DNA of 64,000 nucleotides from Polytrichum commune (lineage: Eukaryota; Streptophyta; Polytrichopsida; Polytrichales; Polytrichaceae): assembly GCA_950295325.1 (NCBI GenBank), contig OX485808.1, forward strand, positions 33,007,180 to 33,071,179. The letters are read 5' to 3'. The position numbers were made by a program, and so were the translations under genes. Below, one piece after another: positions 4,329 to 60,125 of this stretch (within the stretch, counting starts at the first letter, position 1; every line of letters begins with the position of its first letter). The notes beneath the pieces were generated by a model, which was not told the origin of the DNA, ran no database searches, and saw nothing but the letters and a program-made list of their open reading frames with translations.

Positions 4329-4539
4329 AAGTCTCGTCCTGTGGAAGGCATTGGTGGTTTGGTCTGACAACGAGACCGTACTAACCGACATCTCACGCTT
4401 CTTCAACATGGGGAACAAGAAGAGGGCGTACCAGGCATCCTGGATTCGGAACATCATGGCCTCGAGGGAGGTGTGGGAATTTTACGGCAGGCCTCCCAAG
4501 GAAAGGGAGAATGCTAAAGACAAGAACCCAAAATGGGAG

Positions 4540-12511: not shown

Positions 12512-12716
12512 CTAGTGAATTCTAGGCAGGAAATTAGTACCCAACCGACCGGCGCTTACCCATCCTCCTGAGCTATTCGTGTAAATATCATTCAATAAAT
12601 AACGGTCATCGTCATGACCCCTCCTTTTATTCTTATTAACCCTTTACCCTTATTAACCCCTTTTCGATTAATTTTTCGGTATTTACATGTGAGTGAGATT
12701 TTTTGCTCACACGGAC

Positions 12717-15700: not shown

Positions 15701-15769
15701 GAGAGATAGGCATGAGGGGTTAAGTGAAATAATGGGGTTGGAGAACAATGCCACCTCGCAAAGTGGGAG
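12717..15769 (+). pseudogene. Copia Gag-Pol: zinc knuckle, protease, integrase, remnant RT, RNase H
   Basis: The open frame begins inside the insertion (12693) and is the gag continuation from 12717. In order: CCHC knuckle CYNCGKLGHIARNCR near 12980; aspartic protease with DSGA (WIVDSGASQHMTPH) near 13125; GAG-pre-integrase HKRLGHLN and a zinc-like C..C; integrase core with Asp in HSDVCGP, Asp in SDNGGEY and Glu in NGVAERANR, an intact DDE triad; RT remnant; RNase H with SDADWAGD, MEAEYMAM and CDNQGS; and the C-terminal ADILTKAL. Between AMQEEFE and MSDLGELHFF (about 14855-14868) the canonical RT fingers and palm, including the YVDD site, are missing in frame, a loss of roughly 180-190 residues judged from the family. 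The product could still give capsid, protease, integrase and RNase H but not reverse transcription. The frame formally ends inside the 3' LTR at 15788. Confidence 0.92.
15760..15769 (+). other. Polypurine tract of the copia element
   Basis: AAAGTGGGAG abuts the 3' LTR start TATTGG, the expected site for plus-strand priming. Confidence 0.7.
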
Positions 15770-15960
15770 TATTGGAAGATGGTGTTAGGTTGCAACGGTG
15801 ACATTGTCCCATATGGGTTGTCTACGCTGGTCCTAACCCATACATATAAATAAAGGCATAAGGGGAGGAGCTTATCACTCTCTCCATTGTATGCAACCAT
15901 TGTGTATTGTGTTCTTGCTTCCACGCTGATCTCTTTGCTTCTTCCTCTCATTTCCCAATA
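15770..15960 (+). repeat. 3' LTR of the copia element
   Basis: Same length as the 5' LTR with one visible difference near the start, ending CCAATA, followed at once by the target duplication TTCAG. Confidence 0.92.
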
Positions 15961-17340: not shown

Positions 17341-17479
17341 AATATGTCTTTGGCTCCACGCCATGAAAGCCACTATTGCCCACATTGTGTTTCATTGACA
17401 ATAAGCGTTAGGAATATCCATGAAATTTATTGAATGAGATATTTTGACATACTCTTCATTTGGCTCTCTTGTAGTGGCC

Positions 17480-17899
17480 ATGGATTCCAACGCCGGTGAT
17501 AGTGCGTTTGAGTTGTCTTCGGAAACGTCAAGCTATGGTAGCGACTTTGAAGTTGTCGTGGAATATGAAACTACAATTGGTGTCGCCAATGAAGAGGATG
17601 AATTCCTTCCACCATGTGAGGGTTATTCACGGGAACAGTGGGTTGATCTTGATGTTGTCCTAGTCCTTGGTATGAGCGACGTTATAATGCCTTCACTATT
17701 CTTATTTTTGGCCGTCGATGCCGCCTCTGTTGTTGATTACTCCAAAGACTCTGGGTTTGAAGACGGAGTTGTGAATAGCCCTCCTACAAAGGTAGCAAAA
17801 CTCAATTACACTCCATCTCCATCTCCAACTCCCCTTCGCACTGAGAAGCACGTTCGCAACCCACGGTCGAGCATACGCCTTTGCATGGATGAACCCTGA
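17480..17899 (+). CDS. Small acidic protein sharing modules with the 38.3-kb and 49.9-kb genes (139 codons)
   Basis: ATG at 17480 is chosen because an acceptor-like CTCTTGTAG lies just before it. The N-terminal half is Ser- and Glu-rich (SAFELSSETSSYGSDFE). Then SREQWVDLDVVLV matches SRASWVNLDVVLV of the DUF7869-type gene at 49.93 kb. After a hydrophobic stretch, DAASVVDYSKD...PSPSPTPL matches DAASTIDYSKE...PSPSPLKG in the tail exon at 38321-38640. It thus reads as a composite of parts seen separately in two other genes. No catalytic motif is seen and no function is proposed. It may be a fragment whose downstream exons are lost. Confidence 0.45.
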   Translation: MDSNAGDSAFELSSETSSYGSDFEVVVEYETTIGVANEEDEFLPPCEGYSREQWVDLDVVLVLGMSDVIMPSLFLFLAVDAASVVDYSKDSGFEDGVVNSPPTKVAKLNYTPSPSPTPLRTEKHVRNPRSSIRLCMDEP

Positions 17900-26950: not shown

Positions 26951-29900
26951 ATTTGAATGTGATATGTGGTTAGGGTGCTAGTTTGAGAGCTCCAAAGGGG
27001 GGCTTAGAGGTTGGCTATAGTTGAAATCCATTTGACTTTGCTTTCGGACAGGGCTGAAGTGAGGGCTAGTATGGTTGGATTTTATGAATTTTCTGTTTAG
27101 GGTGCAAGTGGTAGAGCTCCAAAGGGAGGGCCATTGGCCTCTGTCGGATCCGACAGCCCAAGGGTAGCCACCTTGGGGACCTCTCAAGTTTTTTTTTTTT
27201 GCTTCAATTTGGGCTGAGGTGAGGGCTGACGTGAGGGCTGGGATGGGTTTTTTTTTAAATTTCTAGCTAATGTGCTTGTGGGAGAGGGCTTAAGGGGCCT
27301 TAGATGTTGTCTTTTTGTTGAAATAGATTTGATTTTGATTATGGGCTCGGGTTGATGTGAGGGCTTGTATGGTTGTATTTTGTGAGATTTCTAGTTAGGG
27401 TTCAAATGAAAGAGCTGTGAAGGGGGGCTTGAGAGGTTAGTTCTGGTTGAAGAAGATTTGATTTTGATTATGGGTGAGGGCTGATGTGGGGGCTTAGAGG
27501 CTTGTTTTTAGTTGAAATTGATTTGATTTTGGATATGGATGAGGGCTGAGGTGAAGGCTTGTATGGTTTTAATTTCTGAATTTCTGGTTAGGGGGCTAAT
27601 GAGAGAGGTTTGAAAGGAGGCTTAGAGGCTTGTTTTTAGTTGAAATTGATTTGATTTTGGATATGGATGAGGGCTGAGGTGAAGGCTTGTATGGTTTTAA
27701 TTTTTGAATTTCTGGTTAGGGGGCTAATGAGAGAGGTTTGAAGGGGGGCTTAGAGGCTTGTTTTTTGTTAAAGGGCTGATGCGTGGGCTCGTATGGTTTT
27801 AATTTTTGAATTTCCGGTTAAGGTGCTAGTGGGAGAGCTCCAAAGGGAGGGCCCTAGGCCTCTGTCGGATCCGACACCCCATTGGAAGCCATCTTGGGGA
27901 CCTCTCAATTTATTTATTTTGTTTCAATTTGGTCTCAGGTGAGGGCTGATGTGAGGGCTTGTATGGTTTTAATTTCTCAATTTTCTAGCTAAGGTGCTTG
28001 TGGGAGAGCTCCAAAGGGAGGGCCCTAGGCCTCTATCGGATCCGACAACCCATTGGAAGCCATCTTGGGGACCTCTCAATTTATTTATTTTGTTTCAATT
28101 TGGTCTCAGGTCAGGGCTGAGGTGAGGGCTTGTATGGTTTTAATTTCTCAATTTTCTAGCTAAGGTGCTTGTGGGAGAGCTCCAAAGGGAGGGCCCTAGG
28201 CCTCTGTCGGATCCGACAACCCAGTGGAAGCCATCTTGGGGACCTCTCAATTTATTTATTTTGTTTCAATTTGGTCTCAGGTGAGGGCTGATGTGAGGGT
28301 TTGTATGGTTTTAATTTCTCAATTTTCTAGCTAAGGTGCTTGTGGGAGAGCTCCAAAGGGAGGGCCCTAGGCCTCTATCGGATCCGACAACCCATTGGAA
28401 GCCATCTTGGGGACCTCTCAATTTATTTATTTTGTTTCAATTTGGTCTCAGGTGAGGGTTGATGTGAGGGCTTGTATGGTTTTAATTTCTCAATTTTCTA
28501 GCTAAGGTGCTTGTGGGAGAGCTCCAAAGGGAGGGCCCTAGGCCTCTGTCGGATCCGACAACCCATTGGAAGCCATCTTGGGGACCTCTCAATTTATTTA
28601 TTTTGTTTCAATTTGGTCTCAGGTGAGGGCTGATGTGAGGGCTTGTATGGTTTTAGTTTCTCAATTTTCTAGCTAAGGTGCTTGTGGGAGAGCTCCAAAG
28701 GGAGGGCCCTAGGCTTCTGTCGGATCCGACAGCCCATTGGAAGCCATCTTGGGGACCCAGCAGCTTCAGACCATCATAACTTTCTTGTATGATGTCTAAT
28801 TTGAACAACCAACCACTCCATCTTCATCTACGCTTCACGTAGATGCCGATGGATCCCTCACTTGACCCATTCAGGCAAGTATTGACGACGTTATGCCTGT
28901 TTGAACCTTGGCAGTCCCGGGAATCACTCCCAGGCACTGCTGGACCAGGGCTCTGTCGGATCCGACAGCCCATTGGTGGCCACCTTGGGGTTCTCTCAAG
29001 ATATTTTTTTTTGCTTCAATTTGGTATGGATGAGGGCTGAGGTGAGGGCTTGTATGGTTTTAATTTCTGAATTTTCTAGCTAAGGTGCTTGTGGGAGAGC
29101 TCCAAAGGGAGGGCCCTAGGCCTCTGTCGGATCTGACAGCCCATTGGAAGCCATCTTGGGGACCTCTCAATTTATTTATTTTGTTTCAATTTGGTCTCAG
29201 GTGAGGGCTGAGGTGAGGGCTTGTATGGTTTTTTTTCCAAATTTTCTAGCTAATGTGCTAGTGGGAGAGGGCTTAGGGAGCTTAGAGGTTTGTTGTTTGT
29301 TGAATTTGATTTGATTTTGCTTATGGTTGAGGGCTATTGTGAGGGCTTTCTGGGTTGTATTTTGTGAAATCTCGGGTTAGGGTGCTAATGAGAGAGGTTT
29401 GAAGGGGGCCTAAGAGGTTAGTTTTTAGTTGAAATTGATTTGATTTTGCTTTGAGAAAGGGCTGATGTGTGGGCTTGTTTTGTTTTATTTCGTGAATTTT
29501 CTGGTTAGGGGGCTAGTGGGAGAGGGCTTAGGGGGGCTTTGAGGTTTTCTTTTTGTTGAAATAGATTTGATTTAGCTTATGGGCTCGGGCAGATGTGAGG
29601 GCTTGGATGGTTTTTTTTTCTGGAATTTCTGGTTAAGATGCTAGTGGGAGAGCTTTGAAGGGGGGCTTAGAGGTTTGCTTTGGTTGAAATTGATTTGCCT
29701 TTGCTTATGGGTGAGGGCGGGTATGGTTTTTTTTAAATTTTCTAGCTAGTGTGCTAGTGGGAGCGGGCTGAAGTGATGGCTTGAGAGGTTTGTTTTAGTT
29801 GCAAATGATTTGACTTTGCTTTTGGGAGAGGTCAAATGGGTTCCCACTTCGGAACCTTTTAAAGTGGTCATTCTTATGCATATTTTGTTCATTTGGCTGG
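26950..29900. repeat. GC-skewed repeat field upstream of the ParB-like gene, with a 171-bp palindromic satellite
   Basis: Loose ~100-125-bp units (AGAGAGG(T)TTGAAGGGGGGCTTAGAGG, TTGATTTGATTTTG, GAGGGCTGATGTGAGGGC) surround a regular 171-bp satellite at about 27.8-28.75 kb. Each satellite unit has the palindrome CTGTCGGATCCGACAG or a one- or two-base variant, at 27141, 27862, 28032, 28203, 28375, 28546, 28717, 28952 and 29123. Another copy is at 31622 in the next long intron. The block ends at the TTCTCAG acceptor before exon 29931, so it is probably an intron or 5' region of that gene. Confidence 0.88.
28759..28951 (-). mobile_element. Gypsy LTR fragment embedded in the satellite
   Basis: Matches about 23687-23882 of the inverted LTR (CAGACCATCATAACT..., CTACGCTTCACGTAGATGCC, GGCAGTCCCGGGAATCACTC, CACTGCTG-ACCAGGGC). 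It stops exactly at the LTR palindrome, where the sequence changes to the satellite palindrome CTGTCGGATCCGACAG. Confidence 0.85.
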
Positions 29901-29930: not shown

Positions 29931-31219
29931 GAGATCATTGAGATGGTGGGGGATGGAGAGTCTTTGGATGTTGGGGTTTGCAATGGTGCTAAGTCATCCC
30001 TTAGTGTTGAGGAGCATAAGGAGCAAGGGTCTCCGTTGTCACTTGCTGAAAATATTGGGCTTACACCAGGTAGTAGCGAACCCCATACACCCGGGATGCC
30101 ACTCTGCGGCTCACCTGCAGAATCGGATGTCGGTGTTCGTGCAATGGAGTATCGGATTCGCTACAATTTAAAGAAAGATAGCTTCTCAGTTGTTGAGGGC
30201 ATGAGGATACAACCGGTAGAAAAATCCTCTATGAGAATCCCCCTCTGCAGGTTGATTCACATGCCATTGGTTCGCCCAACCCTCCGCAGCGACGTTACAA
30301 AGCTCATGGCGGCATTTCAATTTGGATACCGAGCTGGGTCTGCCACTTTGTACGTGTCTACTACAAATGAGTCTGGAGATAATCGATTCATTTCTACGAA
30401 AGACAGGCGTGAATGGGGAGAGCTTTGGGTTGCAGAAAATGATAAGTTTGAGTTTTTCTACGCGCGGATAAGGACTTGATGAGCCTCAGTGGATGTATGT
30501 TCGTCGTGTATGATGGTAACCACCGCTTGCTTGCGTGGAAGGAGTGTATCGAATCAGATCACAAGGACGATGCACTCTGGTATGAGAAGCATGGTTGCCC
30601 AGAATGTGTTGTCTTCGACACAACGGGTGGACGTGGGGACGTCCTTAACGCAATGCACGACATCAACAAGTAAGTATGTTAGTTTTTCAAATCGTTTTTT
30701 CCTTCATTTTTTATTGGCATCTAATGGCATTTGTCTCAACCGCAACAGGGCTAACCAAACCGCTCACGTTAAAACTAGCCTCGTACACACTCTACACCGC
30801 ATTCAAAAATACGGTTCGTATGATCTTAGCTACTACCAGCCATTATTGACCGAGGAGCAATTCCAAGCGTGCAAGAGCAGAGGCCCCAAGAGCCCTTGGT
30901 ACCCGCTGACCCAAGACCTTATGGTGTCCTTCATTTTCAATGTAAGTCACTCCAAATTTCTCAACCTTCTACTTCGCATTCATTACTCTTAGTCATGATC
31001 TTACAATTTCAAATATATGTTCAGCAAAATATAGCCGATGCGGTAGATGAGGCAGCCCAAATCTACAAGGAGGAAGTTCCTCCAGAGGAGCAATCTGGGA
31101 ACCGGTTGGGTGAGGTATTGGACGCTGTGATTAAGAAGACGACTGAGGAACTTGGGCACAAGTTTAACAAACAACAATCAATCGCAAACCCCGCCCTTGA
31201 AAAACAGTTCCTAGAGGAG
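29931..31219 (+). pseudogene. ParB/sulfiredoxin-like unit A of the 30-37-kb gene (frameshifted)
   Basis: Exon 29931-30669 follows a TTCTCAG acceptor (Met at 29943). Exons 30749-30941 and 31025-31219 follow with canonical GT-AG sites. Exon 1 includes RIQPVEKSSMRIPLCRL and VVYDGNHRLLAW followed by LNAMHDINK, which fit the ParB/Srx fold (conserved G-x-H-R-x-x-A; ParB proteins bind DNA and CTP, and the fold also serves nuclease and sulfiredoxin families). Unit B at 33.1 kb repeats the same order. Between FEFFYAR and DKDLMSLSG a base is missing near 30466, so the frame shifts. The last exon ends phase 0 and could splice to 32883, making unit A and unit B one protein with a duplicated domain, or unit A may be a truncated tandem copy. 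Confidence 0.65.
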
Positions 31220-32882
31220 GTACGTTTTGGTTGAATTAAATTTGAATGTCCTTATGGGAAAGGTCCTTATTGTTGAGGGCTATTGTGAAGGCTTCTATGG
31301 TTGTATTTTGTGAAATTTCAAGTTGGGGGGCTAATGAGAGAGCTTTGAAGGGGCGCTTAGAGGCTTCGAATTTGTTGAAATTGATTTGATTTTAGTTATG
31401 GATGAGGGCTGAGTTAAGGGCTTGTATGGTTTTAATTTTTGAATTTCTGGTTAGGGGGCTAATGAGAGAGGTTTGAAGGGGGGCTTAGAGGTTTGTTTTT
31501 TGTTAAATTTGATTTGATTTTTCTTTGCAAAAGGGCTGATGCGTGGGCTCGTATGGTTTTAATTTTTGAATTCCTGGTTAAGGTGCTAGTGGGAGAGCTC
31601 CAAAGGGAGGGCCCTGGGCCTCTGTCGGATCCGACAGCCCCAGGGTAGCCACCTTGGGGACCTCTCATGTTATTTTTTTTTTGCTTCAATTTGGTCTGAG
31701 GTGAGGGTTGGGATGGTTTTTTTTCGCATTTTCTAGCTAAGGTGCTTGTGGGGGAGGGCTTAGGGGGGCTTAGAGGTATTCATTTTGTTGAAATCGATTT
31801 GATTTAGCTTATTGTTGAGGGCTATTGTGAGGGCTTGTATGGTTGTATTTTGAGAAATTTTTGGTTAGGGTGCTAACCAGAGAGGTTTGAAGGGGGCCTA
31901 AGAGGTTAGTTTTTAGTTGAAATAGATTTGATTTGAATGTGCTTATGGGAGAGGTCTCAAGTGAGGGCTTACTGCTAGCATTCTTTGCAGCATTTATGAG
32001 AATATATTCTCAAATTTACTTCGCCTTCTTTTTTTATTGCAAGTGTTTTTTGGAAGAGGCCTCAGATCCAAGGCCTCATTTTTGAGTCAGGTTGTGTGCT
32101 TGAAAAATGAAAATGTTAGGTTCATTTTTGAATTCTCTCGGCCATTTTCTGTAGTATGTATTTCATAAGGAGGGGCATTCGGAAGAGGCCTCGGATCCGA
32201 GGCCTCATTTTTGTGTCAAGGTATGTGCATGAAAAGTTAAAATGTTATGTTCATTTTTGAATGCGCTTGGCCCTCTTGTTTTGGGTAGTGCATAAGTAGG
32301 TACTTTGTGAAGAGGCCTCGGATCCGAGGCCTCATTTTTGTGTCAAGGTATGTGCTTGAAAAATGAAAATCTTATGTTCATTTTCGAATCCTCTCGGCCT
32401 TCTTGTTTTGGGAAGTGAATAAGTATGTGTTTTGGGAAGAGGCCTCGGATCCGAGGCCTCATGTTTGTGTCAATTTTATGCTAGAAAAATCAAAATGTTA
32501 TGTTCGTGTAAGATTGCTCTCGGCCTTCTTGTTTTGGGTACTACATGAGTAGGAGGTTTGTGAAGAGGCCTCGGATCCGAGGCCTCATTTTGGAGACAAT
32601 GTATGTGCTTGAAAAGTCAAACTGCTATGTTCACATAAGATTTCTCTCGGCCTTTTTCTTTTGGGTAGTGCATAAGGAGGAGGTAGGAAAAGAGGCCTCG
32701 GATCCGAGGCCTCTCATTCGTAGGTAGGTTAGTGCTAGAGTTGACCACTTGACTTAGCATTCGGCCATTTCCATTTGTAGTTTGCTCTCGGCCTTGTATT
32801 GTTTTTGTGAGGATTTGTTTCTTTATAGTTACGAAGTTATTGACTTTTCTTTGTGAAATTCTCATTTTCTCCATGTTCTTAG
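31220..32882 (+). other. Long intron or spacer between units A and B
   Basis: Donor GTACGT at 31220 and acceptor TTCTTAG ending 32882, both phase 0. It holds the same loose repeats as 27-30 kb, one CTGTCGGATCCGACAG (31622-31637) and the 127-bp array at 32056-32713. Confidence 0.7.
32056..32713. repeat. Six palindromes AGGCCTCGGATCCGAGGCCT, ~127-bp period
   Basis: 22-bp palindromes (the stated core plus flanking G and C) at 32056 (two mismatches), 32185, 32312, 32439, 32565 and 32692, at spacings of 126-129 bp. Spacers share CATTTTTGTGTCAAG, TATGTGCTTGAAAA and CTCTCGGCCTTCTTGTTTTGG but vary more than the palindromes do. The centre is GGATCC, containing GATC. Confidence 0.95.
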
Positions 32883-35800
32883 GATATGGACTCTTCACAG
32901 GTTGCGCAATCGCAACCCCAATCTGGAGAGGATGTTGTTCTTGCGGCCCCCGCGGTTGAAGTTGAAGCTGTGCAGGTTGAGAGTCTCAATTCGCAGGGCC
33001 CATTACAAGTAGAGGTGAGTTGGATAGTTGTTGAGTAATTTGTTGAGCAAGTTTTTTGAGTTCTAGCTTTCTAAGCATGGTTTTATTGTTTGTGTTTTTG
33101 TTAGGCTCTCGCAATGAGCGAAGATGCCGTTCAAGCAGTTGCCGACACGGATCCCGTGGTGTGTGAGCTTGAGCTTCGGAAATCACAAAAGGAGGACTCC
33201 ATTGGTGTTATCCAACGCCTCCGGATTAAGCCAACCTGTAAGTCCCGCTTATCCATTCCTTTGTGCCGCTTGAGAGCCCTCCCTCTCGTCCGTCCTATCA
33301 GTGAGGTTGAGGTGCAGCGCTTGGAATGTGAATTTGTAATGGGATACCGAGAGGGTGATCGGGTTCTTTACGTGTCTTCTTTCAACGACGTTCCCGTGGA
33401 CCTCCCCATTCCCCCTGGCATTATGGCCTCTTGGAGCCCTCTCTGGCAAGAGGCCTCCGCAGAATTTGACGCCAAGCTCAAGGAGGATCCGGATCTTGCA
33501 CATTTCGCCGGGAAGATGTTCTTCGTCTGGGAAGGCAATCATCGTCTCACCGCTTGGTGGAGACACATCAATAACCACCACGCCGATGACAAGAGTTGGC
33601 ATATCTCGGTGGATTGCATTGTTGTTGACCCTAGAGGATACACCGGTGTATTCCTCAATGCCATGAGCGACATTAATTGGCAAGCTCATTCATTTTTTTC
33701 ATTCATTTTTTATTTTTGTTTCAATTCTTTTCCATTCTTTTCACCTCACGTTCCTCACATATTTTTTCTCAGGTCAACCGAGGATGATTATGTCAAGGCA
33801 AACATTCCGGCCAAGCTCCTTCGAATCCGCACTTTTGGGAGGTTAGAGTTGTCCACCTTCAAGGATCTTATATCGCCATCTGACTACAAAGCATGCGAGA
33901 AGATAAAGGAGAGTCGCCCAACTTGGTACACCTTGACCGCGGATATGTTCGTTAAGTTTCTTTACAAGGTATGGTTTTATGCATTCAATCATTTAGAGCT
34001 TCCAACATAGATAATTTCCATGCCGATTATATGAACTCACAAGGTCATTTCTTGCAGAGAGACATTTCGGCTCAAGCAGACCTTGCAGTGAGGCATTACC
34101 GTGAGACCACACCCGTTGCGGAGAGGTCGGCCACTGAGATTTGGAATGTTATGACCAAGGCCCAGGAGAGAACAATCAAAAGTATTCGGGCCCGTTCTTT
34201 TGAGAAGTACATATCCGTTGCACACCCTGACAATGGAGAGGATTTCTTTCATGAGGTACTCTTTTGAACTCAAATCACTCTTGAACGCAATTCATCCAAA
34301 TCACTCTTCAATTCTATTACTCTTTTGAACTCAAATCATTTTTATTTTGTGCACAGATTGACCGTCATTTTAATGAGTTCTCTTCGACGGACATGACAAT
34401 TGAAAAATTATAAAAAATTGTCACATGCCCGGTCGAAGCTTCGTTCAAAGCTAAGTGGCTTCACTGGTGGAACGCCCCCCTTTGTGAAAGGTTAGATAAC
34501 AAGTTCCCCGTCGACAAGCCTATGAGGGAGAGGGCTTTGGACGACTGGCTACACAAGGCGTCCTTCTGGGCTCAAGTAAATCCATTCCTCGGCCTTCTTC
34601 ATTTTCATTTTCCTCTATTCCATTTATCTCATATCTAATCATCTCATTCTCTGCAGTTGGAGAAAGAAGTCGCGGTTGAAATTGAGACCTTAGAGGAGAG
34701 CCTCTCCGTCGACATTGATTGGGACGCATCAGAAACTATCTTGCGCCCTCGTGAGTACGTTGATCATTGGCGGATTGTCCTTTGGGACAAGGCCTTCAAG
34801 CCTTATCTCGGCGATAAGCCTGACATCGCATTTGCCAAAGGTGATAATCTCTTGGAGTTCGAGGAGGGGGCTCTCGCTATCAAGCGTGTGGCCTATCGGT
34901 AATACATCTATCCTCCACTTTGCACCTCTCCTTAATGTCATTTCTTGCTCGTTTTGTTGGTTTTCTTACATTCTTGTTTTGTCATGTAGGTATATCATGA
35001 GAGAATTGGTTGTGAAGAATGCATTGGCCTCATCTTCCTTGCCGGACTACCTCTCGGACTGGGTGAATATTTTTTCTAGCCTCTGCGTGTACACGACCGC
35101 GCAAACAAACAAGTTTTCCGAATTGCACTTGCAGGGTGGTGGATGGTACTTGGATTGTGCTGCAAGATTTGTCCCCGGGGAAGAGAAGGCTTTGTTTGCT
35201 AGCCTTGTGGGTAGTGCTCTGGATAATAACATTGTTACCTTGGAAGAGCCTGACATCGTTGAGCTTCCCCCTCCTCCTCCTAAGGCACCAAGAAGAAAGG
35301 GCAGAGCAAAGAAGACCGCCACTCAAGCATCTTCCCAAATTCTCACTCGGTCTGCTTCTAAGACCCCGGTTGAGCCACCCACCCTTCCACACAGTCCATC
35401 TATCGCTCCCTCCGTTGCTCCCTCTCTTGCCCCCTCTGTTACTCCATCTGCATTTCATCCACAATCTTTTGCCACTCCATCTCACAGTGGCACTTCTCTC
35501 CTCTCTTTGCCTCGCAAGAGGAAGGCCGCTCTCTTGGATACCAGTGCCACCTCTTCGGATGCCCCTAACATGCTTACCCTCATCGAAAATATGGACATGG
35601 TTCAACTAATGCTGGATTCCGAGGTTGCCGGAGGTCCCCTCCCCGCATATATCCGCATCCAAGAGTTCATTGCCAAGGTTTGTATACTTGCCTTCTTCAA
35701 TTCTCAATTTTTTTTCCTTTGCTTTGTTTATTTCTTTCCTTCTTGTTTTCTCATGAAGTTTCAATTGCAGGTTGGGGCAGGTCGTTCCCATGTGAACACC

Positions 35801-37086
35801 TCGACTACAATTCACAAGGGCCTCGATTTGCTCTTCGCCGACATTCCCGAGAATTTGCCGGTGCCGAACATCTCCACCGATGTTCCTGCTTGGAACAAGC
35901 TCCATGAATCATACTATGAGTGTCTTTTTGCATTTGCGAAATCTAACCTCTATGATCATGGTGTCCTTGTTCTTGCCCATTGTGCGAGTGCCAGTGTTTC
36001 TAGGAGTATTTTCGATTGGGCACACACTTATGACTTCTACGTCGCGGAAGATTGGTTTGGAATGAATGATTTAGACCTCCAATCTCCCGTTGTTCCCTCT
36101 GGAGTGGTAAGCAAGTCTCCCTCTCTTCCCCTTCCGTATTACTTATCATTTCAATTTCAATTCAATTTCAATTCCATTTCATTTCAATTCAATTTCATTT
36201 TCATTGTTGCAGACTCGGAAGTTCAACATCAAAGTTCTTGTTCGTGTTAACTCCGTTCTTAGAGTGCGGGAGGAGGCCATACAAGAGTATGGTTACAACC
36301 TCCAACGAGATGGATGGTTGAATACCTTCACCGATGAGAAGAGCCAGACGATGCGCAGTGATGGGGTACCTTGGCGAGGTGCCCGTGAGAAGCATCCTGT
36401 TTTTTTTTCCATCCTTCTCGCTACTCTCACCGACAAGAATGATGTTATTATGGACTGGCAGTGTGGTGTAGGTACGCCTTCTTTTTCAACTTCATCCTTA
36501 CTTTGAATTTTCTATTATTTTTCCTTGACTAGTTTTCATACTAACATTTTACCTCTCTTTGCTTTAGGTGGTTCGATTACAGCATGTCGCTCCCTTGAGC
36601 GGCATATTGTGGCCCTTGAGAGTGACCCCGTCATTTTCAATTCACTCCTACTCCCCATGCGCGATCCCCAGCCTGCGCGTATATCTCGCTCAGTTGCCGC
36701 ACCGTCTACATCTATCTTTGATCCTCCTCAAAAGATGACCAAGAGGGCATTCGGATTCCTTTGTGCGTAAGTTTGCTTTCTATATTTTGCCATGTTTGCC
36801 TTGATTTCAAATTCTCATTTTCTAGTGTCATCATGTTTCTAATCATTTTGCTTGGGTGTTTAGAGAGCCAGCGGAGGTCGCAGTCATTCGTTGAGACATG
36901 TTTTCAAGTCCTCCGAAGCCGTTTGAGCTTCCCCCGTATGCTAGTGCAATGGCGGATTGTTTTGCGAAGGCGGAGTCCCCATCTCCTCCTCGCGTTCGTC
37001 ATTTCTCGCGTGGAACACGAAATCTTTTCTTGTTAGAAGCAAATGAGGGTGAGGAGAGTGATAGGGAATGTTCTCCAAGCCCTTAG
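32883..37086 (+). pseudogene. ParB-like unit B plus C-terminal N6/N4 DNA-methyltransferase-like domain, 11 exons
   Basis: Exons read from splice sites and frame: 32883-33014 (Met 32886), 33105-33679, 33773-33968, 34058-34255, 34357-34575, 34657-34898, 34990-35677, 35771-36106, 36213-36471, 36568-36766, 36864-37086. The second intron (33680-33772) is GC-AG. ParB-like: RLRIKPTCKSRLSIPLCRLR, then FFVWEGNHRLTAW and FLNAMSDINW. A Pro/Ser-rich basic linker follows (35270-35530, KAPRRKGRAKK). Methyltransferase-like: LLFADIPENL in exon 8, where motif IV DPPY is expected, YYECLFAFAKSNLYDHGVLVLAHC after it, and motif I-like VIMDWQCGVGGSITACRSLE with ESD across exons 9-10. That order is class beta. In-frame TAA at 34411 and TGA at 36892 interrupt a frame otherwise open to 37086. 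Loss of the aromatic in motif IV also argues against catalysis. Confidence 0.65.
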
Positions 37087-37141
37087 TTTATCATTTTGGT
37101 TTTGGAGATTATAACTCCGTTTGTTGTTGTTATCCGGCTTT

Positions 37142-37147
37142 AATAAA
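37142..37147 (+). terminator. Polyadenylation signal of the 30-37-kb gene
   Basis: AATAAA 55 bases after the last stop, followed by a GT-rich tract (GTTGTGTGTTGG). Confidence 0.55.
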
Positions 37148-37149
37148 AG

Positions 37150-38100
37150 TTGTGTGTTGGTTTTATTTTTGATATCCGGCGCAAGTTTCATTCTTTCTCT
37201 CCATTATTTCATATTCATATGTCAACCCGCATTGCATTCTTTATTTTTTCTTCATCGTTCGGATCTCTTAACTTCTAGTCACAAAACAATCTAGCTCTCG
37301 GCTCTTAGTGTGAGATCTTAGTTATAGGGGGACCATACTTTCTATTAGTGTGGATGGTTTATTTTATGGTTGTGCACACTAATCACATTGGCCGTCTTCC
37401 AATCCCAATTGCTATATAGCAATTGGAAGTTTTGTTTGGCACGCGAACATAACCTCGTCAAACTTTTTAAATTGAACTTCATGTTGTTCTCAAAGAGCCG
37501 GCACGTCACCTCAAAAATTTCCAAGAGGATTCTAAGGTTGGACTTGGGGGATTTGTCTTTGAGGTCTTTGGCTAAGCTAAGGACTGAATTGGAAGGCTGT
37601 TATGGTGCGACGGAGTTTTATGGCATGTTCTTTGGATCATTTTACCCATATTGGACATGCCCGGCAGATAGGGTGTAGATGGCCCTAAACTAGAGTATAT
37701 AGTTATTTTAACTAACTACCCATTTTTGTAAGTCTTGAGGTTGGCTACATTTTGTTGACCAATAAAATATTTTGTGTATGGTATTTTGATTTCAATTTGG
37801 TGACGTCAGCCCTAATTTAATATGATACATTTGAAAACATATACTATAAGATGTTTGATAACAAATGCAATCTTCCACGCCTATAGGATCCGTTGGTTTC
37901 TCAAACAATTATGGGTTATTATGTCCACGGGAATGGGGGTACCTTTCCAAATATAGAATTCAAACTATCTCTAATTCCACGGAAATAGGCACTGCTTCTC
38001 CTAAAATTACCCAACAAAATCTAAATTTTCCGCTCTCCGCTCTCCGCTCTCCGCTCTACGCTCACATACTTGAGTTTCCCCATAGGAGACCATAGCAAAC
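37150..38100. other. Intergenic spacer
   Basis: No gene seen. It includes the CGCTCTC minisatellite at 38031-38069 described for 4282-4328. It separates two ParB-like/methyltransferase-like genes that are convergent, tail to tail. Confidence 0.5.
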
Positions 38101-38329
38101 ATACTAAACATACCTTCTAGGATCCTTATCTTCAGCCCCTATATTAATTTTACAAAAAAACAATGGCCCACATTTTATGTCCATCTAACTTACTTATAAT
38201 GGGATTGTCTACATTTAATGGCCCCTTCATTATTTGGAATTCCTTTATAATTTTTATTTCAAATGATTTTAATCCTCTCTATATTATGCCGCACGTCGTT
38301 TTTAAAATGCACTAAGTGACCTACCCGTG
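38101..38329 (+). repeat. ~228-bp dispersed repeat, copy 1
   Basis: ATACTAAACATACCTTCTAG through GTGACCTACCCGTG. The same sequence in the same orientation, about 95% alike by eye, is at 59902-60125. Both copies end CTACCCGTG. No terminal inverted repeats were seen. It may be a small non-autonomous element or LTR piece. Its 3' end overlaps the end of the tail exon. Confidence 0.85.
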
Positions 38330-38640
38330 CAAAGGGATAGGAAGGGTGCCGCTCTTCGTAGGCCGAGCGTCCATCCGCAGCCGCCGTTGAGGTGTAATAT
38401 TGCCGCCGGGCCGAGAGGGGGACGTCCGGACGCATTTGCGATCTATGCCCTTGAGCGGCGACGGGGACGGAGATCGCCGGAAGATTTGCTTGGGTGGGGG
38501 GCTATCGACGACGCCGGCGTCAAGAGGCTCCTTGGAGTAGTCAATGGTTGACGCGGCGTCGTAAACGGTCTCGTAGAAGAAGCTCCCCAAGTCTGACTCG
38601 CTGACGATCTCAATCGAGGGCTCCAAACGCTGGCACAAAA
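38321..38640 (-). CDS. Tail exon (SP-rich) of the 38-44-kb minus gene
   Basis: An acceptor TTTTTGTGCCAG precedes RLEPSIEIVSESDLG. The exon continues through DAASTIDYSKEPLDAGVVD and a basic SPSPSP region to a stop at 38321. The same module is at 17.7-17.9 kb. Joining to the FCP1-like exon needs a frame that exon does not provide, because TGA at 38785 comes first, so its link to the upstream gene is uncertain. Confidence 0.4.
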
Positions 38641-38736
38641 ATGGAAACGAAACAAAACCCAAAGGAAGAGGGTTTGATAGAGCGCGTGAAAATCAAGATA
38701 CATATGAAGCATATATTACACAAAGTGGACGGGCGC

Positions 38737-38759
38737 GCACACACACACACACACACACA
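38737..38759. repeat. CA microsatellite
   Basis: About eleven CA units inside the putative last intron of the minus-strand gene. Confidence 0.9.
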
Positions 38760-38784
38760 TACACATACAAACACACGTACTGTC

Positions 38785-39597
38785 TCAAATGAGCTTGTTA
38801 AATTTCGCGTGAGATAACAACTCTCTGTACAAATGGTCTCGTGGATCCAAGTATCTCTCACCTATGGGATTATTCCTAACAAAATTGTTTACGGGTAGTC
38901 TGCTACCCCAGAGCGCCTGGAGGTATTTACTAAGGTCTAACAAAAATCGGTCCCAGACCTTCTCGACCGTCCACGTAGGGCAAACTATGAAGTTGGCCGT
39001 CGGGTTCAACATGTTCTTTGCGGCGCTATCGTCCACCATGAGCGTGTTCTCGCGGGTGGGGCGGACGTCGTAGGGGACGCCTATCAAGGACGGTCGCTGG
39101 TCCCAAAAAATGGGCTTCAAGACCTTGAGATATTGGGGGGAAGCGGGGTTGTTTGGTTTTTTGACGACTTTGCCGTCCTGTGTGTACAATATTCTACAGG
39201 CTTCCTGTGCTAGGACCATGCAGGGGGGCTCGATGCCCTTGAAGATGAACTCCACGACGGCATTGGTGTTCTCGGCCTTCATGGAGCTCCACACGACCAC
39301 CCACCATCGTTGTTGGGCGATCTGGAGGAAGGTCCGAAGCCACGGGCGGAGGTGAACTAGCTTGCTTTTTATGAACGTGGGCGGCCCGTCGTAATTAGCG
39401 TCCTCGGGCTTGCAAAAGGGCACCGTGGGGGCCCTAGGGCAATGAACGCACTGCACGAGGACACCGTTCAGGTCTAACACCAGGAATCGTTTCTTTGGCA
39501 ACGGGGGCGGGGCGGGTAAAACCGGGGGTGCCGCCGCGCTGCCCTCTCCGCTCCTTGGAGAAGAGCGTCGGGGAGCCGCTACGCTATGCTCCGAGCC
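38785..39597 (-). CDS. FCP1/NIF-like (HAD-fold) phosphatase-like exon
   Basis: The exon begins after a GTATCCGCAG acceptor and carries a Pro-rich linker (GSEHSVAAPRRSSPRSGEG) into FLVLDLNGVLVQC, the HAD motif I, where FCP1-family DxDxT reads DLNGV. Later VVWSSMKAENT matches motif II, with PIFWDQRPS next. ENTLMVDDSAAKNMLNP matches motif III/IV of FCP1/SCP phosphatases, which act on phosphoserine of RNA polymerase II tails and other proteins. The second Asp and the Thr of motif I are replaced (N, V), so phosphatase activity is doubtful, although the first Asp and the DD pair remain. Phase 0 at the acceptor fits the preceding exon ending 40110, placing the domain at the C-terminus of the ParB-like/methyltransferase-like gene. 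Confidence 0.75.
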   Translation of the reverse strand, partial: GSEHSVAAPRRSSPRSGEGSAAAPPVLPAPPPLPKKRFLVLDLNGVLVQCVHCPRAPTVPFCKPEDANYDGPPTFIKSKLVHLRPWLRTFLQIAQQRWWVVVWSSMKAENTNAVVEFIFKGIEPPCMVLAQEACRILYTQDGKVVKKPNNPASPQYLKVLKPIFWDQRPSLIGVPYDVRPTRENTLMVDDSAAKNMLNPTANFIVCPTWTVEKVWDRFLLDLSKYLQALWGSRLPVNNFVRNNPIGERYLDPRDHLYRELLSHAKFNKLI

Positions 39598-40066
39598 CTG
39601 CGGATACGATCGAGAGAAAACGGTGGGCGACTTATGTCATGCTATGTCCAAACGAAGCATTAAAGAAACGAGTGTTCTCGGTGCAAACACAAAACCAATT
39701 GATTCATTTTGGAGGGGGTGCAACAAGGGATACAAGAGAGGCAAGAGCATACAACATACATTCAAACACAGGATACAAGTATATAGGAGTAAAAAATGGT
39801 GATTATATTGTATACAATGCTCTATGTACATCTTGATTGGGGGGAGCAGCGTTGAACGATGCGTTCAAACTAGCCTACTTCTACATCTACCAAAATTTGA
39901 AGAGACAGGCCGCCGTGATGAAGACTTCGTCGCAAGCCAGGGGTATGTGGACGAACGGATGGTTGGGGGGATGTGGCAAAGGGCGCGAGTGCCGGGGGGG
40001 CGACGTGTGCTTGAGTTTAGGGTAGCTAGGGGACACGACCAAGGCAAGAAGACAAAGACCCAGGGA

Positions 40067-40088
40067 GTTTGGGTCGACCGACCCAAAC
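40067..40088. repeat. Palindrome TTTGGGTCG-AC-CGACCCAAA in intron 3
   Basis: A single perfect-arm copy about 20 bases inside the intron from the donor at 40109, with core AC. Confidence 0.95.
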
Positions 40089-40295
40089 TGAGTGGGGTCA
40101 GTTCATTACCTCGCCTTGGTCGTGCCTTGCCGCCGTTGATGCCGGCATCGCGTGCGCTGCCCCACCTCTATCACCGCCGCCGCCTCCGACGACGACGTGA
40201 GCCGCAACCTGCTCCTGCAAAGGCAGACTGTCAGGCCCTTGCGGGCCTTCAACATCTAGCATGGGCTCGTCCATAGGGGTCTGATCGGGGACGAG

Positions 40296-40317
40296 GTTTG
40301 GGTCGGCCGACCCAAAC
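40296..40317. repeat. Palindrome TTTGGGTCG-GC-CGACCCAAA inside coding exon 3
   Basis: A perfect palindrome within the open frame ending at 40110. It is read through as VGFGSADPN in the minus-strand protein. Confidence 0.92.
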
Positions 40318-41564
40318 CCTACTGCTTGGCGAGGGTCGCTCTGGGACGCTGCAACGTCGGCACTATTTGGGTCGTCCCGCTGGTGGTGTGGGGGCAAGAG
40401 GATGGGAGGCCGAAGCGTCGGGGGTGCCAACGAGCTGGAAGCTTCTGGGACGCGCCAAAGGTTGGGGTCGTCCACCTGCTGGACGGGCGCGTAAGGGCGG
40501 GCGTGAGGCTGCAGCAAATGCCCGAAGCTGAAGGACTGCTGCGGCGTGGGCCGCGGGCCGATATCCAGTGGAGGGAAGCCTGCGGGCAAGTGAGGGAATG
40601 AACTCGGGGGAGCCATCACCAATCCATGCGCCAGCATGCCCTGGATCACTTGCGTGATCAGGTCCGCTTGGGACGGAGGTTGGGCCATCGCCCTTTGCCG
40701 CTCCTGCTCCAACAGGAGAGCCCTCAACTCCGCGACTTCGTTGCGGACCGAGGGCTCCTCGGCGGCGCCTTTTGCAATCGGACGCACTGCTCCTCGTCCC
40801 GGAGCATCTTCGCATTGGCCTCCTCCACGGTGAGGACCTCGGGTTTCACCCTCACATTCCCAGCGAACGCTGTGGGGGAGGCAGGATCCGACCTCAGCCT
40901 CTTCGCGAGCTCCATGTCGTCCTCGTCCTCGGAGCTTATGGCGATCGTCTCCTCCACCGCATAATCGCTATATAATTTTTTCCCCTTCAGCATTCGCCGC
41001 TCCCTGAAGGTGGCCGTCGCGTCCCTCGAATACATGTCCTTCGCGTCGGCCACCGTGAGGACGGGCACTAGCTTGCTCTGCGGCGTGGCAGCCCGCATGG
41101 CCTTCTTCCGCTGAGGGGCCTCGGATTCTTGAGTGAATCCTGTTGCCCCTTCCTCCACCTCCCCCTCCACTTTTTCTGCTTCCTCCTCCTCCTCCTCTTC
41201 CTCCCCCTCCTCCTCTTCCTCGCCACCTGCTCCCATTGACGGATTGCCCGGGTGCAACCCGATGAGCGGTTCTGGCAATTGAATGGGGGCCCACATGGCG
41301 AATTCACCCAGGTTGATTCGCCTAGCCATATCCAACGGGTTCTCGCCCCCTTCGACGATCTCTTCGACGTAGGATCCGGGTATCCAGTCGAGGATGTCCA
41401 TTCTCTTCGCCAGAGCCTTCTGGGTCCTGTAGAATTGAACATCGGCATCCTCCACATAGGAGTAGATGTTCAACCCAGACATCTGCACAATCCAATTCAA
41501 TAGTATTAGTATCACCAATGAAGAATAAGGAAAAATGACACCCAAAACAAAACAATAATAGTTA

Positions 41565-41692
41565 GTTTGGGTCGCTCGACCCAAACAATGCATGCCCTAG
41601 TTTGGGTCGCTCGACCCAAACAATGCATGCCCTAGTTTGGGTCGCTCGACCCAAACTGAGCGTGCCCCTAGTTTGGGTCGCCCGACCCAAAC
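41565..41692. repeat. Four palindromes in intron 2 of the minus gene, 35-36-bp period
   Basis: Copies at 41565-41586, 41600-41621 and 41635-41656 with core CT, and 41671-41692 with core CC. Spacers read AATGCATGCCCTA and TGAGCGTGCCCCTA. Confidence 0.95.
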
Positions 41693-43104
41693 CGTCCATA
41701 TAGTTCCTTCAGGTTATTTGCTTACCATGGCTGCGAAAACCGGTTTGGAGCCCCCGAAGACATTGAAAATGCAGTCCCCTCTCTTCGTGAGGGTCCTCAT
41801 CATCCGCAGGTAGAACTCCATGCGCAGCTCATCCGCGGGGTAGTTGGCGTACTTCGCCTCGTCGTACAAGCTTCTGCTGGAGCCCAACCCTTCTTGGACT
41901 TGGAAGAGCTTCTCCATCCTAGCTATGGGATGGTTTGGCACCTTAAGCAGCTCAGCTTTGTACATGAAGTACAAGCACAACACATTGACGATCTTCGTCT
42001 TCTTGTCTTTCAGCGTGTTGTACGCCCCCTCCGCTGGTGCAGCAACGTAGTGAGATTTTGAGACGGCGTACTCTGGCTGCAATTTCCGCACGATCTCGTA
42101 CACCTGCTCTGCCCTCCTGTCCTCGACAATCCACAGCCAGACGTCGACCTCCCTGAATTTGGGGCTGCCGTAATCCACAAACTTCGTGAAGAACGGCTCG
42201 TAGAACGGGGTGCTCATTGTCCCCTCGAATGAGGCTCTAGGGATGTTCTTGAAGTCTATCATTCCGAAGGGGAAGCGGTCCCCGGCTTTTGTCCTGATAG
42301 CCTTCCTGGCATCAGAGCCCGGCCAGCCTTGGATCTAAAGAGGATCGACGGTGACCAAGTTGAAGTAGGCGTTGCCCTCGAAGCTGATGATCTTCTTCTC
42401 CTTTATAAAGTTGGAGAAGGTACGCGTGGAGTGTTTGGGAAGCGCCCGGTTCCTCCCCCCCTTCACAAGCTTGGACTTCAGGAAGTTGTCTCCCGCCTCC
42501 CTCATGAGTGCCGCCATGGACGCACTGGTGAACTTGTAGTCGGCTTTGAATGCCCTCCAGTGCGCCTCGTCGACCTCTCCATCCACTATGAGCTTCTTCT
42601 CCGGCACCAGCTTGTGCAGCTCTTGGACGATGGTCGTCTTCTTCTTCCTGTTCTCCGTCCATTCCTTCATGGTGTAGCATGAAGGGACGAAGATCTTTGG
42701 CTTCGTGAAGACGATCTTCGGGTGAATCCAACATCTCTTCGCTGTCGGCTGCACGTGGAGGATGTGGGACGCCGCCTTTCCCATCTCTGTCTCCGAGAGA
42801 CCTTGAAGAGCTCTAAAGAACTCCCTCACCAGAGGCTTCATTTGCTTGAAGCGCGCAGTCTGGTTGAAGAGCATGCCGGTGTCAGGATCCATGAGGTCCC
42901 CCGTCTCGTGTTTCTCGAAAACACTCTTCCATCTCCCCCACACGGAATCAGACGCTGTGATCAAATAAATTTCTCCTCTTAGCTCGTTGTACTTCTTCTG
43001 CTTGTGGGAAGCGTTGTCAATCGAGGAGAATTTGTTGATCATCTGGTATTTGAAGTCCTGCACATGAAGTAAATAACACACGTTAAAAAACTACGAATGC
43101 AAGA

Positions 43105-43183
43105 GTTTGGGTCGATCGACCCAAACTATAAACCTGACGAGGATGTTTAAACAATGCAAGAGTTTGGGTCGATCGACCCAAAC
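43105..43183. repeat. Two palindromes (core AT) in intron 1 of the minus gene, 57-bp period
   Basis: At 43105-43126 and 43162-43183, in the intron 43058-43191. This is the same array as 4548-4740 but two units shorter. Confidence 0.95.
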
Positions 43184-44544
43184 ATACTCACCTCCCATTT
43201 GGGGTTCTTGTCTTTAGCATTCTCCCTTTCCTTGGGAGGCCTGCCGTAAAACTCCCACACCTTCCTCGAGGCCATGATGTTCCGAATCCACGATGTCTGG
43301 TACGCCCTCTTCTTGTTCCCCATGTTGAAGAAGCGTGAGATGTCGGTTATTACGGTCTCGTTGTCAGACCAAACCACCAATGCCTTCCACACCTTTAGCT
43401 TCTCCTTTTGGTTATTGGGGTCGTCCCACTCGGTCATCAGCAGAATTTTTTTAGAGGCCTCCACACTGTGCTGGCCGTCAATCAGCCAGAAGTCGCCTTT
43501 GCATATTGCCGGCCACATTTCAGGCGTCGGCATTCTCTTCAGCCCTTGGGGCATGACAACAATTGTGTGCCTGTCATCTTTGAATTGCCCTCCCAAGATC
43601 TGAGCAACCATCCAGTCGACGTAGGTGTCCTTCTTGGCTCGGACACACTTCTTAGGTGGCGCAAGGTGGCACTGTGCAATGTTCACCTCGAACTTGAAGT
43701 CCCTGCCCATGAAGAAGCAATGCAGGCACTTCGTCTCGAAGTTATCATTGATTTTCTGTATCTTGCCTGCATCCACCTCTTGGCTAGGTTTCGGCATCCG
43801 CAGCTCCGGGGAAACTGGCTCGGTGGTCATGACGGAGGACTCTCTTGCCCTCTTCGACGGGGTCGTCTGCCGGCTTGCGGACGGTGTGGGCGTCTCGTTG
43901 TCAGCCGGCGTTCCTGTAGTGCTAGTCCGTCTGGAGTCTGCAGGGACCGGACGCAGCTTCCTCACAGTTTGGGGTCTGGACGACCCTGCGCCTTCTTCCG
44001 TCGTTGCCTTACGCCTCACAGGCTGCTGCGTTTTGGCTTTGCTTTGCAGCGCCTTGTTGAGGACCGTGATAGCCTGTTTCAATTTTGTAAACCTACTTGC
44101 AACCTTCGTGTTGGTTACATTGCCATCTATGAATATGGCCTCCGGTTTAATTGTCTCAGGATCCACGCGTGTCTCCTTGGCGTAGATGGTGTCGAATGAC
44201 TCGGAGAATTGGTGCATGAACATGTGGGCGTTCTGCACGGCGGAGTTCTCGAGAATTACATCCACGTAATTCCCGAGGGCTTGGACGGACGCAACCTCCC
44301 GACCTGTCAACGTTGTCCAAGTGTGGTTCTTGTGGGTCCCTACTTTTACCACGAACAGGAGCTTGAACTGGGAGCCCTTTACAACCTGAACTGACCACGC
44401 AAGGACGAGCCCATCCTTGGGCACGTATGAGTCGTCCTGGGGAGTTTCATACTCCTGCCATATTACGTCTGACGCGAGCATAAAGAACCTTTCTCCAGGT
44501 CTCTTCTTGGGGGCCATCTGTAAGTCCAAAAATTGAAACTATTA

Positions 44545-44979
44545 GTTTCGGTCGATCGACCCAAAGTAGTCGACAATGCATTTAACATTTGGTGGAAATG
44601 GAACAAATGTATTTTATTGACCATCCCGAATTCAAGGTTTGGGTCGATCGCCCGAAACCTTGAACACTTGGTGGCTCGTGCTCCTTGTGTGCTGAAATAG
44701 ACCTATGATGGTTCCTCGTTAGAGAGTTTGTTTGTATTGGTATAATATATGTGTATGTACATGATTTCATCAATTTCAATTATGGGCATCTGAAGGATTC
44801 TTTGATACTTTTCTTGTTCAGACGTCGTGTTTGGGTCGGGCGACCCAAACATGAGGCTTTGTTTTGGGTTTAGGTTCACAAACATGTGGCTTTCTTTAGG
44901 GGTCAGGGTCCCAAAATGAGGACATGTTTAGGTCGAACGACCCAAACAAGAGCCTGTGTTTGGGTCGATCGACCCAAAC
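44545..44979. repeat. Scattered palindromes upstream of exon 1 of the minus gene
   Basis: Five copies: 44545-44566 and 44637-44658 (core AT, arm mismatches), 44829-44850 (core GG, perfect arms), 44926-44947 (core AA, one arm mismatch), 44958-44979 (core AT, perfect). They lie in the presumed 5' intron or promoter of the minus-strand gene. Confidence 0.9.
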
Positions 44980-49254: not shown

Positions 49255-49527
49255 GTTTGGGTCGGTCGACCCAAACCCCTCCACTACTGTTTAGGGTTTT
49301 TGTCTGACCCTGATGAAGTTTGGGTCGACTGATCCAAACTTGTCCACTAGTGTTTAGGGTTTCAGTCTGACCCTTATCAGGTTTGGGTTGGTCGACCCAA
49401 ACCCCTACCCCGGTGTATTAGAATTTCATCCTCACCCTTATCAGGTTTGGGTCGGTCGACCCAAACCCCTACCGCAGCTTGGGCGGCTGTAGGTTGACCA
49501 TGAGAAGGTTTGGGTCGGTTGACCCAA
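49255..49527. repeat. Five palindromes, TTTGGGTCG-GT-CGACCCAAA and variants, ~63-bp period
   Basis: Copies at 49255 (perfect arms), 49318 (degenerate), 49381 (one mismatch), 49445 (perfect arms) and 49506 (one mismatch). Spacers share CCCCTAC, (G)TTTAGGGTTT and GACCCTTATCAG. The array lies just upstream of the coding start of the 49.7-kb gene. Confidence 0.93.
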
Positions 49528-49729
49528 ACCCCTACCAAAATATTTTATGGAACTATTTTTGGTCTTGCGCACAGTATTGGGAGTTCACATTGTAGTTGTG
49601 TTTCAAATGTCTTTATCCTCGATGTCCCTATTGATCATGATGTCTTGTATTTTCTGATCATTTGATTCTTTTGGACCCTTACATTGTGTCCAAGTGTGTT
49701 GAGGTTTGATGTGCATGTGTGTAGGCGTA

Positions 49730-59900: not shown

Positions 59901-59901
59901 C

Positions 59902-60125
59902 ATACTAAACATACCTTCTAGGATCCTTATCTTCAGCCCCTATATTAATTTTAAAATAATGGTCCACGTTTTATGTCCATCTAACTTACTTATAATGGGA
60001 TTGTCTACATTTAATGGCCCCTTCATTATTTGGAATTCCTTTATAATTTTTATTTCAAATGATTTTAATCCTCTCTATATTATGCCGCACGTCGTTTTTA
60101 AAATGCACTAAGTGATCTACCCGTG
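59902..60125 (+). repeat. ~224-bp dispersed repeat, copy 2
   Basis: Second copy of the repeat at 38101-38329, same orientation. The 3' boundary is again CTACCCGTG, and the sequences diverge directly after it. Confidence 0.85.

Follow-up and report, generated by a model that had tools for sequence, protein, structure and literature searches.

The closest described counterparts of the genes considered here are fusions, described from phages (PMC12704722, section 7), in which a ParB-type domain stands N-terminal to a DNA methylase. In that study 50 ParB-fold proteins were chosen, methyltransferase fusions among them, 28 were purified and 11 bound nucleoside triphosphates; its tree includes eukaryotic ParB-fold sequences, and the sections covered here describe no eukaryotic methylase fusion. 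We analysed a 64-kb stretch of the Polytrichum commune genome (contig OX485808.1; the whole stretch is the window in what follows), of which the interval 29931-44517 holds three loci of interest, here genes 1 to 3, and one bystander open reading frame (ORF). An earlier note had read this interval as two diverged genes; there are three loci, genes 1 and 2 being paralogues of each other and gene 3 the diverged one. The layout is not ordinary: it is the known ParB-methylase architecture, but in an intron-containing, eukaryotic and catalytically diverged form, and no report of such a plant family was found in open-access full text among the matches listed. The explanation that we favour, with moderate confidence, is that these genes belong to a eukaryotic, intron-containing, multi-copy family that has the architecture of the phage ParB-N6/N4 fusions, has diverged catalytically and would act mainly in DNA binding or self-recognition.

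As in the phage fusions (L223 and L126; PMC12704722, same sections), the ParB-type part is N-terminal and the methylase-like part C-terminal, and the putative motif IV precedes motif I. Both of these phage proteins (open frames of 404 and 562 amino acids) pass the Pfam cutoffs for both domains and keep an SPPY or DPPY motif, unlike gene 2, which encodes 967 amino acids in nine modelled exons, has no PP[YFW], places about 580 amino acids between its GNHR motif and a putative motif IV, and carries an insert of about 40 residues in its ParB domain. Relative to the ParB-CTPase/sulfiredoxin superfamily (ParB, Noc, KorB, Srx and SerK), gene 2 has extra helices at residues 101-124. The N4-methylcytosine (4mC) system of bdelloid rotifers is active and is not known to have a ParB domain. 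It offers a parallel in that a eukaryote there carries an exocyclic-amine DNA modification of bacterial type (PMC8885841, in the parts drawn on here), and the gene 2 family differs from it in its changed catalytic motif.

The ParB-like domain of genes 2 and 3

Gene 2 lies at 33114-36766 on the forward strand and is modelled with nine exons and at least eight introns; a tenth exon could not be placed in the exon model, the acceptors are AG throughout, and the donors are GT except for a GC donor after exon 1. The earlier estimate of about ten introns holds for gene 2 in that its introns are many, whereas gene 3 has two clear ones and a donor-like GTAATG at the end of its exon 3 that is a candidate third. 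Exon 1 of gene 2 (33114-33680) encodes a predicted ParB/sulfiredoxin-fold domain containing EGNHRLTAW, with GNHR at residues 141-144. An AF2 model of this exon, built from a 99-sequence alignment (98 proteins and the window exon), reached a predicted local distance difference test score (pLDDT) of 86.8, and its best structural matches in the PDB were ParB, Noc, KorB and sulfiredoxin, in agreement with the ParB-like N-terminus proposed in the earlier note. In the model a strand at 136-140 is followed by a helix at 142-155; N142 and H143 are invariant across the 99 aligned sequences and R144 is present in 92 of them. Going by the order of strands and helices, GNHR would correspond to the P-motif GxxR of ParB. 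At the level of sequence profiles, Pfam ParB_N (PF02195) matched 0 of the 99 family members at E<=0.1 (among the phage controls L223 and L126 pass and L042 fails), no profile similarity to the ParB superfamily was found outside the motif, and tblastn of the GNHR domain against phage genomes gave chance-level matches only (E>=3 among the matches listed).

Gene 3 runs on the reverse strand (44517-40110) in three exons, the first of which (43192-44517) encodes an N-terminal stretch followed by a DGQHR-like domain with DGQHSVEASKK. DGQHR-type domains of phages are linked to DndB. Gene 3 exon 1 aligned with 105 phage domains of this type at an hhalign probability of 95.6 and an E-value of 1.3e-8 (hhalign E-values between two alignments being, here and below, pairwise and not database-corrected); with the motif masked the domain still aligned over 50 columns (E 1e-4), and the reversed control gave E 0.27. 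Masked controls, in which only the four motif letters were masked, were used because the phage DGQHR and DGNHR sets had been retrieved by their motif (120 listed matches each, with more existing); 105 of 117 DGQHR ORFs were kept by length and uniqueness, and 17 of 32 DGNHR ORFs were kept by eye as ParB-like. Gene 3 differs from the phage domains in having GQHS for GQHR, as do its relatives P0001 and P0002 (see below), and the P-motif arginine is lost with it; judged by sequence, gene 3 is a further-diverged member of the family. Its DGQHS domain had no match in the phage tblastn search, gene 3 pieces gave nothing convincing in the Pfam and NCBIfam searches, and PDB sequence searches with queries A1, A4 and A5 returned no match or a single meaningless one. 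The structural side of the proposal stands for gene 2 exon 1 and gains nothing from gene 3, for whose homologue P0002 the fold model (six sequences) had a pLDDT of 33 and was not used.

The methyltransferase-like C-terminal half

The C-terminal half is a METHYLTRANSFERASE-type domain, and the spliced C-terminus of gene 2 reads HPVFFSILLATLTDKNDVIMDWQCGVGGSITACRSLERHIVALESDPVIFN. In the exon model, exons 2-3 (33773-33968, 34058-34255), exon 4 (34357-34575) and exons 5-6 (34657-34898, 34990-35677) lead to exon 7 (35771-36106), which holds the putative motif IV region LLFADIPENLP, placed by eye, with DIPE at the place of DPPY, and to exons 8-9 (36213-36471, 36568-36766), which hold motif I, DWQCGVGGS, across the splice, and motif II, VALESDP. 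All of the motifs quoted in the earlier note were found: DGNHRLLAW in gene 1, EGNHRLTAW in gene 2 and DGQHSVEASKK in gene 3, motif I as DWQCGVGGSITACR only upon joining gene 2 exons 8 and 9 (36471 to 36568), FNVFGGSKPVFAAM as the end of gene 3 exon 2, and the acidic motif II as ESD in gene 2 exon 9 and as VED near the start of gene 3 exon 3. Exon 2 of gene 3 (41726-43057) comprises a middle region and the methyltransferase-like half (IDFKNIP; FNVFGGSKP), and exon 3 (40110-41482) contains the motif II-like YSYVEDADVQFY followed by an acidic low-complexity C-terminus.

The gene 2 C-terminus was searched within a 225-residue piece, and five collections matched, always around motifs I and II: the PHROGs methylases (E 0.0018), phage genomes (tblastn 7e-4, 33% identity over 60 residues), NCBIfam CcrM (E 0.0033), the PDB (DpnA at 0.0057 and, weakly, at 0.22, the cytosine-N4 methyltransferase 8s9m, which we take to be the bdelloid rotifer enzyme) and, weakly, Pfam N6_N4_Mtase (E 0.12, profile positions 175-215 of 221). 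For the last of these (PF01555) the piece scored 12.8 bits against a cutoff of 26.7, which three of three phage controls passed, and N6_N4 was not listed for the full-length protein. In hhalign, gene 2 matched a set of 11 phage N6/N4 methylases (L001 and L003 identical) at E 1.7e-5 with a probability of 78.6, and a second set of five segments (six found, one dropped by length) at E 0.0013 with a probability of 18, with reversed-profile controls at E 0.15 and 0.43; the two sets are not fully independent because L011 is common to both. Profile searches speak on both sides of the earlier proposal, Pfam ParB_N and N6_N4 remaining below cutoff and the comparison with phage N6/N4 methylases supporting it. 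The FNVFGGSKP of gene 3 aligns at the same place as motif I of gene 2 (E 0.042 and 0.0059), at probabilities of only 1 and 6% and with reversed E-values of 0.34 and 0.35. A ParB-type domain N-terminal to a methylase within one protein is seen in gene 2 by the exon model and in P0001 and P0002 by ORF, in each of which a single translated ORF reads through the first intron and joins the DGQHS domain to motif I. The N-to-C order of the phage ParB-N6_N4 fusions, which the earlier note had invoked, is accordingly found in gene 2, and gene 3 has the same layout with weaker support.

The catalytic motif gives a different result. In a motif scan gene 2, gene 3, P0001, P0002, P0004, P0005 and P0006 all lacked [DNS]PP[YFW]; the sole instance is the SPPY of P0003, in a proline-rich tail behind motif II, and gene 2 has a DPPQ at 953, also behind motif II. 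The putative motif IV is FAD[IV]PENL in gene 2 (DIPE) and P0005 (DVPE), and DF[RK]NIP in gene 3 and P0001-P0004; these placements were made by eye, the global profile alignment giving none for motif IV. Because neither gene has [DNS]PP[YFW], there is no support for a working methylase, and of the amino-methyltransferase proposed earlier it is motifs I and II of gene 2 that stand, not the catalytic motif.

Lesions, relatives and family size

Every copy of these genes in the window bears lesions or is truncated; the lesions had escaped the earlier note. Gene 1 (29943 to about 31234, forward strand, its frame open to 31234) is a gene fragment, a paralogue of gene 2 that corresponds to its N-terminal exons. 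Two pieces of the GNHR domain are 37-47% identical between the two genes, and in gene 1 this domain is broken by a frameshift between 30452 and 30458, where tblastn passes from frame 3 to frame 2. Tandem repeats of about 171-bp and shorter related units flank gene 1 on both sides (27000-29830 and 31266-31971). Exon 4 of gene 2 is interrupted by an in-frame TAA (34411-34413), and gene 3 has a TAG at 42335-42337 in exon 2 and a frameshift at about 40751-40778 in exon 3 (frame -1, then -3, in the alignment to P0003). A second copy of gene 3, truncated, lies at 4333-5645 on the forward strand and comprises the end of exon 1, intron 1 and part of exon 2 at about 95% identity. Reading the stops as reassigned codons was considered and rejected, because this copy has a sense codon where gene 3 has TAG and because a frameshift is present as well. 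Between gene 3 and the copy the ratio of nonsynonymous to synonymous substitution (dN/dS) is 0.18 over 239 codons (dS 0.136, dN 0.024), which suggests that both were under constraint before they decayed. The duplication proposed in the earlier note therefore applies to gene 3 and to genes 1 and 2, with the qualification that all window copies are damaged or truncated. Between genes 2 and 3 lies an ORF of the NIF/FCP-type phosphatase family (38785-39636, reverse strand; Pfam NIF E 2.2e-14), directly downstream of gene 3 and considered as a possible further exon of it.

A search with gene 3 gave four relatives at E<=0.001 (P0001-P0004), which are proteins without names from Logan, JGI and ENA, with 68-72% identity over 92, 92, 73 and 65% of the query region. 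The gene 2 query alone found P0005 (42% identity), which aligns at 34961-36232, and P0006, a hypothetical protein of the fern Adiantum nelumboides (28%, GNHR part); both are partial or without the methylase half. In the fern gene model the GNHR domain is combined with a retrotransposon gag domain, which may be a fusion or a gene-model artefact. A three-sequence alignment of the GNHR region matched 292 proteins at E<=10, of which the best 120 were all below E 1e-45; among the 120 matches listed almost all are without names and one is from a fern, namely P0006, which was itself part of the query. None of the 119 remaining relatives (P0007-P0125) continues straight into exon 2: P0068 shows an intron and then exon 2, 99 stop without the next exon and 19 have no recognisable exon end, and 59 of the 119 end exactly at the tryptophan preceding the intron. 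Judged by their lengths and by where they end, these proteins look like single exons that bacterial gene finders had called, and the sources and intron remains point to eukaryotic contigs in metagenomes as the probable origin of the unnamed relatives. The eukaryotic family foreseen in the earlier note is, for gene 2, large and intron-containing, with one relative in a fern. Its suggested phage or bacterial origin fared less well, being an inference from architecture: pattern-based scans confirmed no relative in IMG/VR viral contigs or among 84,980 prokaryote species genomes.

Palindrome arrays and competing explanations

Allowing one mismatch, the window has 20 copies, 16 of them exact, of a 20-bp palindrome, TTTGGGTCGNNCGACCCAAA, with half-sites TTTGGGTCG-NN-CGACCCAAA, and 100 shuffles have none. 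The copies are confined to three clusters, 12 at gene 3, four in intron 1 of its truncated copy (4549-4739, 57-bp period) and four upstream of a DUF7869 gene (DUF7869 E 1.5e-23) about 5 kb from gene 3. At gene 3, two lie in intron 1 (43104-43186, reverse strand, 57 bp apart), four in intron 2 (41560-41700, reverse strand, as four copies of GTTTGGGTCGNNCGACCCAAAC with a 35-36 bp period), one in exon 3 and one after it (40068-40316), and four upstream of the start codon (44546-44978, two exact and two with one mismatch). The DUF7869 array (49256-49528) has five units, four of them within one mismatch, at a 63-64 bp period. Cores and linkers are 92% and 49% identical in the DUF7869 array, 100% and 69% in gene 3 intron 2, and 100% and 92% in intron 1 of the truncated copy, where the linkers are thus near-identical too, so that array expansion explains part of the repetition. 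The exon 3 palindrome of gene 3 reads FGSADPN in the post-frameshift frame, and P0003 has FGSTDPN. Palindrome-fitting peptides number five in P0001, one in P0002 and three in P0003 (one of them in exon 3, as in gene 3), sitting mostly where introns are read through, their nucleotides being inferred from the translations only; P0004 has variant forms only, which fit a different half-site, and none of 121 other family proteins has such a peptide. No exact match of the palindrome was found in IMG/VR. Binding sites, RNA structures and repeats specific to an element are all candidate explanations of the palindromes.

The rival that survives best, to which we give a little short of an even chance, holds that the palindromes are unrelated to the protein and are intronic RNA hairpins or a repeat widespread in the genome. 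The array stretches fold far better as RNA than their shuffles (z-scores -7.6, -12.6 and -10.2, the second being that of gene 3 intron 2), the palindromes also stand upstream of the unrelated DUF7869 gene, and array expansion suffices where the linkers are identical too, as in intron 1 of the truncated copy. The folding loses force because any perfect palindrome folds in this way, however, and a widespread repeat sits poorly with only three clusters in 64 kb and with fitting peptides in three of four homologues at 68-72% identity.

It is possible, at rather longer odds, that the genes are cargo or accessory genes of a DNA transposon, gene 3 and the DUF7869 gene forming one two-gene element with the palindromes as its binding sites. 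Gene 3 is duplicated in the window, gene 3 and the region upstream of the DUF7869 gene share the same arrays, further mobile-element-like ORFs were recognised by eye, and the fern relative carries its gag domain. Yet among the inverted matches listed at 36-62 kb the 25 longest all join palindromes and no other terminal inverted repeat showed, the second gene 3 copy is truncated at both ends, and so many introns would be unusual for an autonomous element.

Several other repeats and ORFs of the window are recorded here in their own right. A direct repeat of about 230 bp, 96% identical, occurs at 38100-38329 and 59901-60125, 21.8 kb apart; a long element between the two was considered, and nothing else supports it. 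An identical 16-mer, CTCTACGCTCACATAC, preceded by CTCTCCGC repeats, lies at 4313-4328, just before the truncated gene 3 copy, and at 38054-38069, just before the 38.1-kb repeat, and may mark element ends. An ORF at 17438-17899 resembles an ORF beside the phosphatase (38450-38584) in one stretch (47% over 49 residues) and, in another stretch (61% over 23 residues), the DUF7869 gene at 49.9 kb, which looks like a shuffling of modules between these genes. By eye, 12693-15788 is a Copia-like polyprotein ORF of 1031 amino acids, and an ORF at 2045-3562, near the gene 3 copy, ends in a SWIM-like cysteine pattern.

An active eukaryotic N6-methyladenine (6mA) or 4mC DNA methyltransferase of phage or bacterial descent, which tolerates the motif IV change and marks its own loci or the genome, is unlikely. 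It would account for the motif I/II signal of gene 2, the bacterial-type 4mC mark of bdelloid rotifers is a precedent (PMC8885841, as above), gene 2 and P0005 retain the aspartate and one proline at the putative motif IV, and DPPQ and SPPY exist elsewhere in the gene 2 and P0003 proteins. Against it stand the missing catalytic motif, whose single instance lies in the tail of P0003, the incomplete state of P0005 and P0006, and the lesions in the window copies.

A eukaryotic ParB/parS-like system, in which gene 3-type proteins would load through their ParB-derived domain on the clustered palindromes in their own introns and upstream region and at the linked DUF7869 gene, is more of a long shot still. 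In this way a mobile gene family of the nucleus would recognise itself, regulate itself or control its copy number; the different half-site of P0004 is as expected of a co-evolving binding site, and gene 3, having lost the P-motif arginine, would bind without the usual nucleotide switch. Chance motif resemblance in unrelated proteins, with which the lack of any curated ParB or methylase match above cutoff and the failed gene 3 fold would agree, is very improbable and for gene 2 strongly disfavoured, given that the top fold matches come from the ParB superfamily, five collections agree on a methylase and the reversed controls are negative.

The favoured explanation, that of a catalytically diverged family kept mainly for DNA binding or self-recognition, builds on what was computed: the ParB fold and conserved GNHR of gene 2, its methylase-type motifs I and II, and the lesions in the window copies. 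Its proteins would carry a ParB/sulfiredoxin-fold domain towards the N-terminus, connected by a long linker to a Rossmann-type C-terminal half that holds motifs I and II of the S-adenosylmethionine (SAM) site. In intact relatives of gene 2 the ParB-like domain, by analogy, may bind a nucleotide through GNHR and so alter its grip on DNA, as a switch or clamp, and binding of SAM or DNA would be left to the C-terminal half, whose standard exocyclic-amine methylation is presumed lost because the putative catalytic loop is D-[IV]-P-E (gene 2) or D-F-[RK]-N (gene 3). The main role of the proteins would then lie in regulation through DNA binding, or in self-recognition, within a gene family that is dispersed and resembles mobile elements, and not in general DNA methylation. 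A eukaryotic family with this layout, large and containing introns, would exemplify in nature how a phage-type enzyme can keep its DNA-binding parts and lose its chemistry. The palindromes, the most interesting point, give this family a concrete and testable binding hypothesis.

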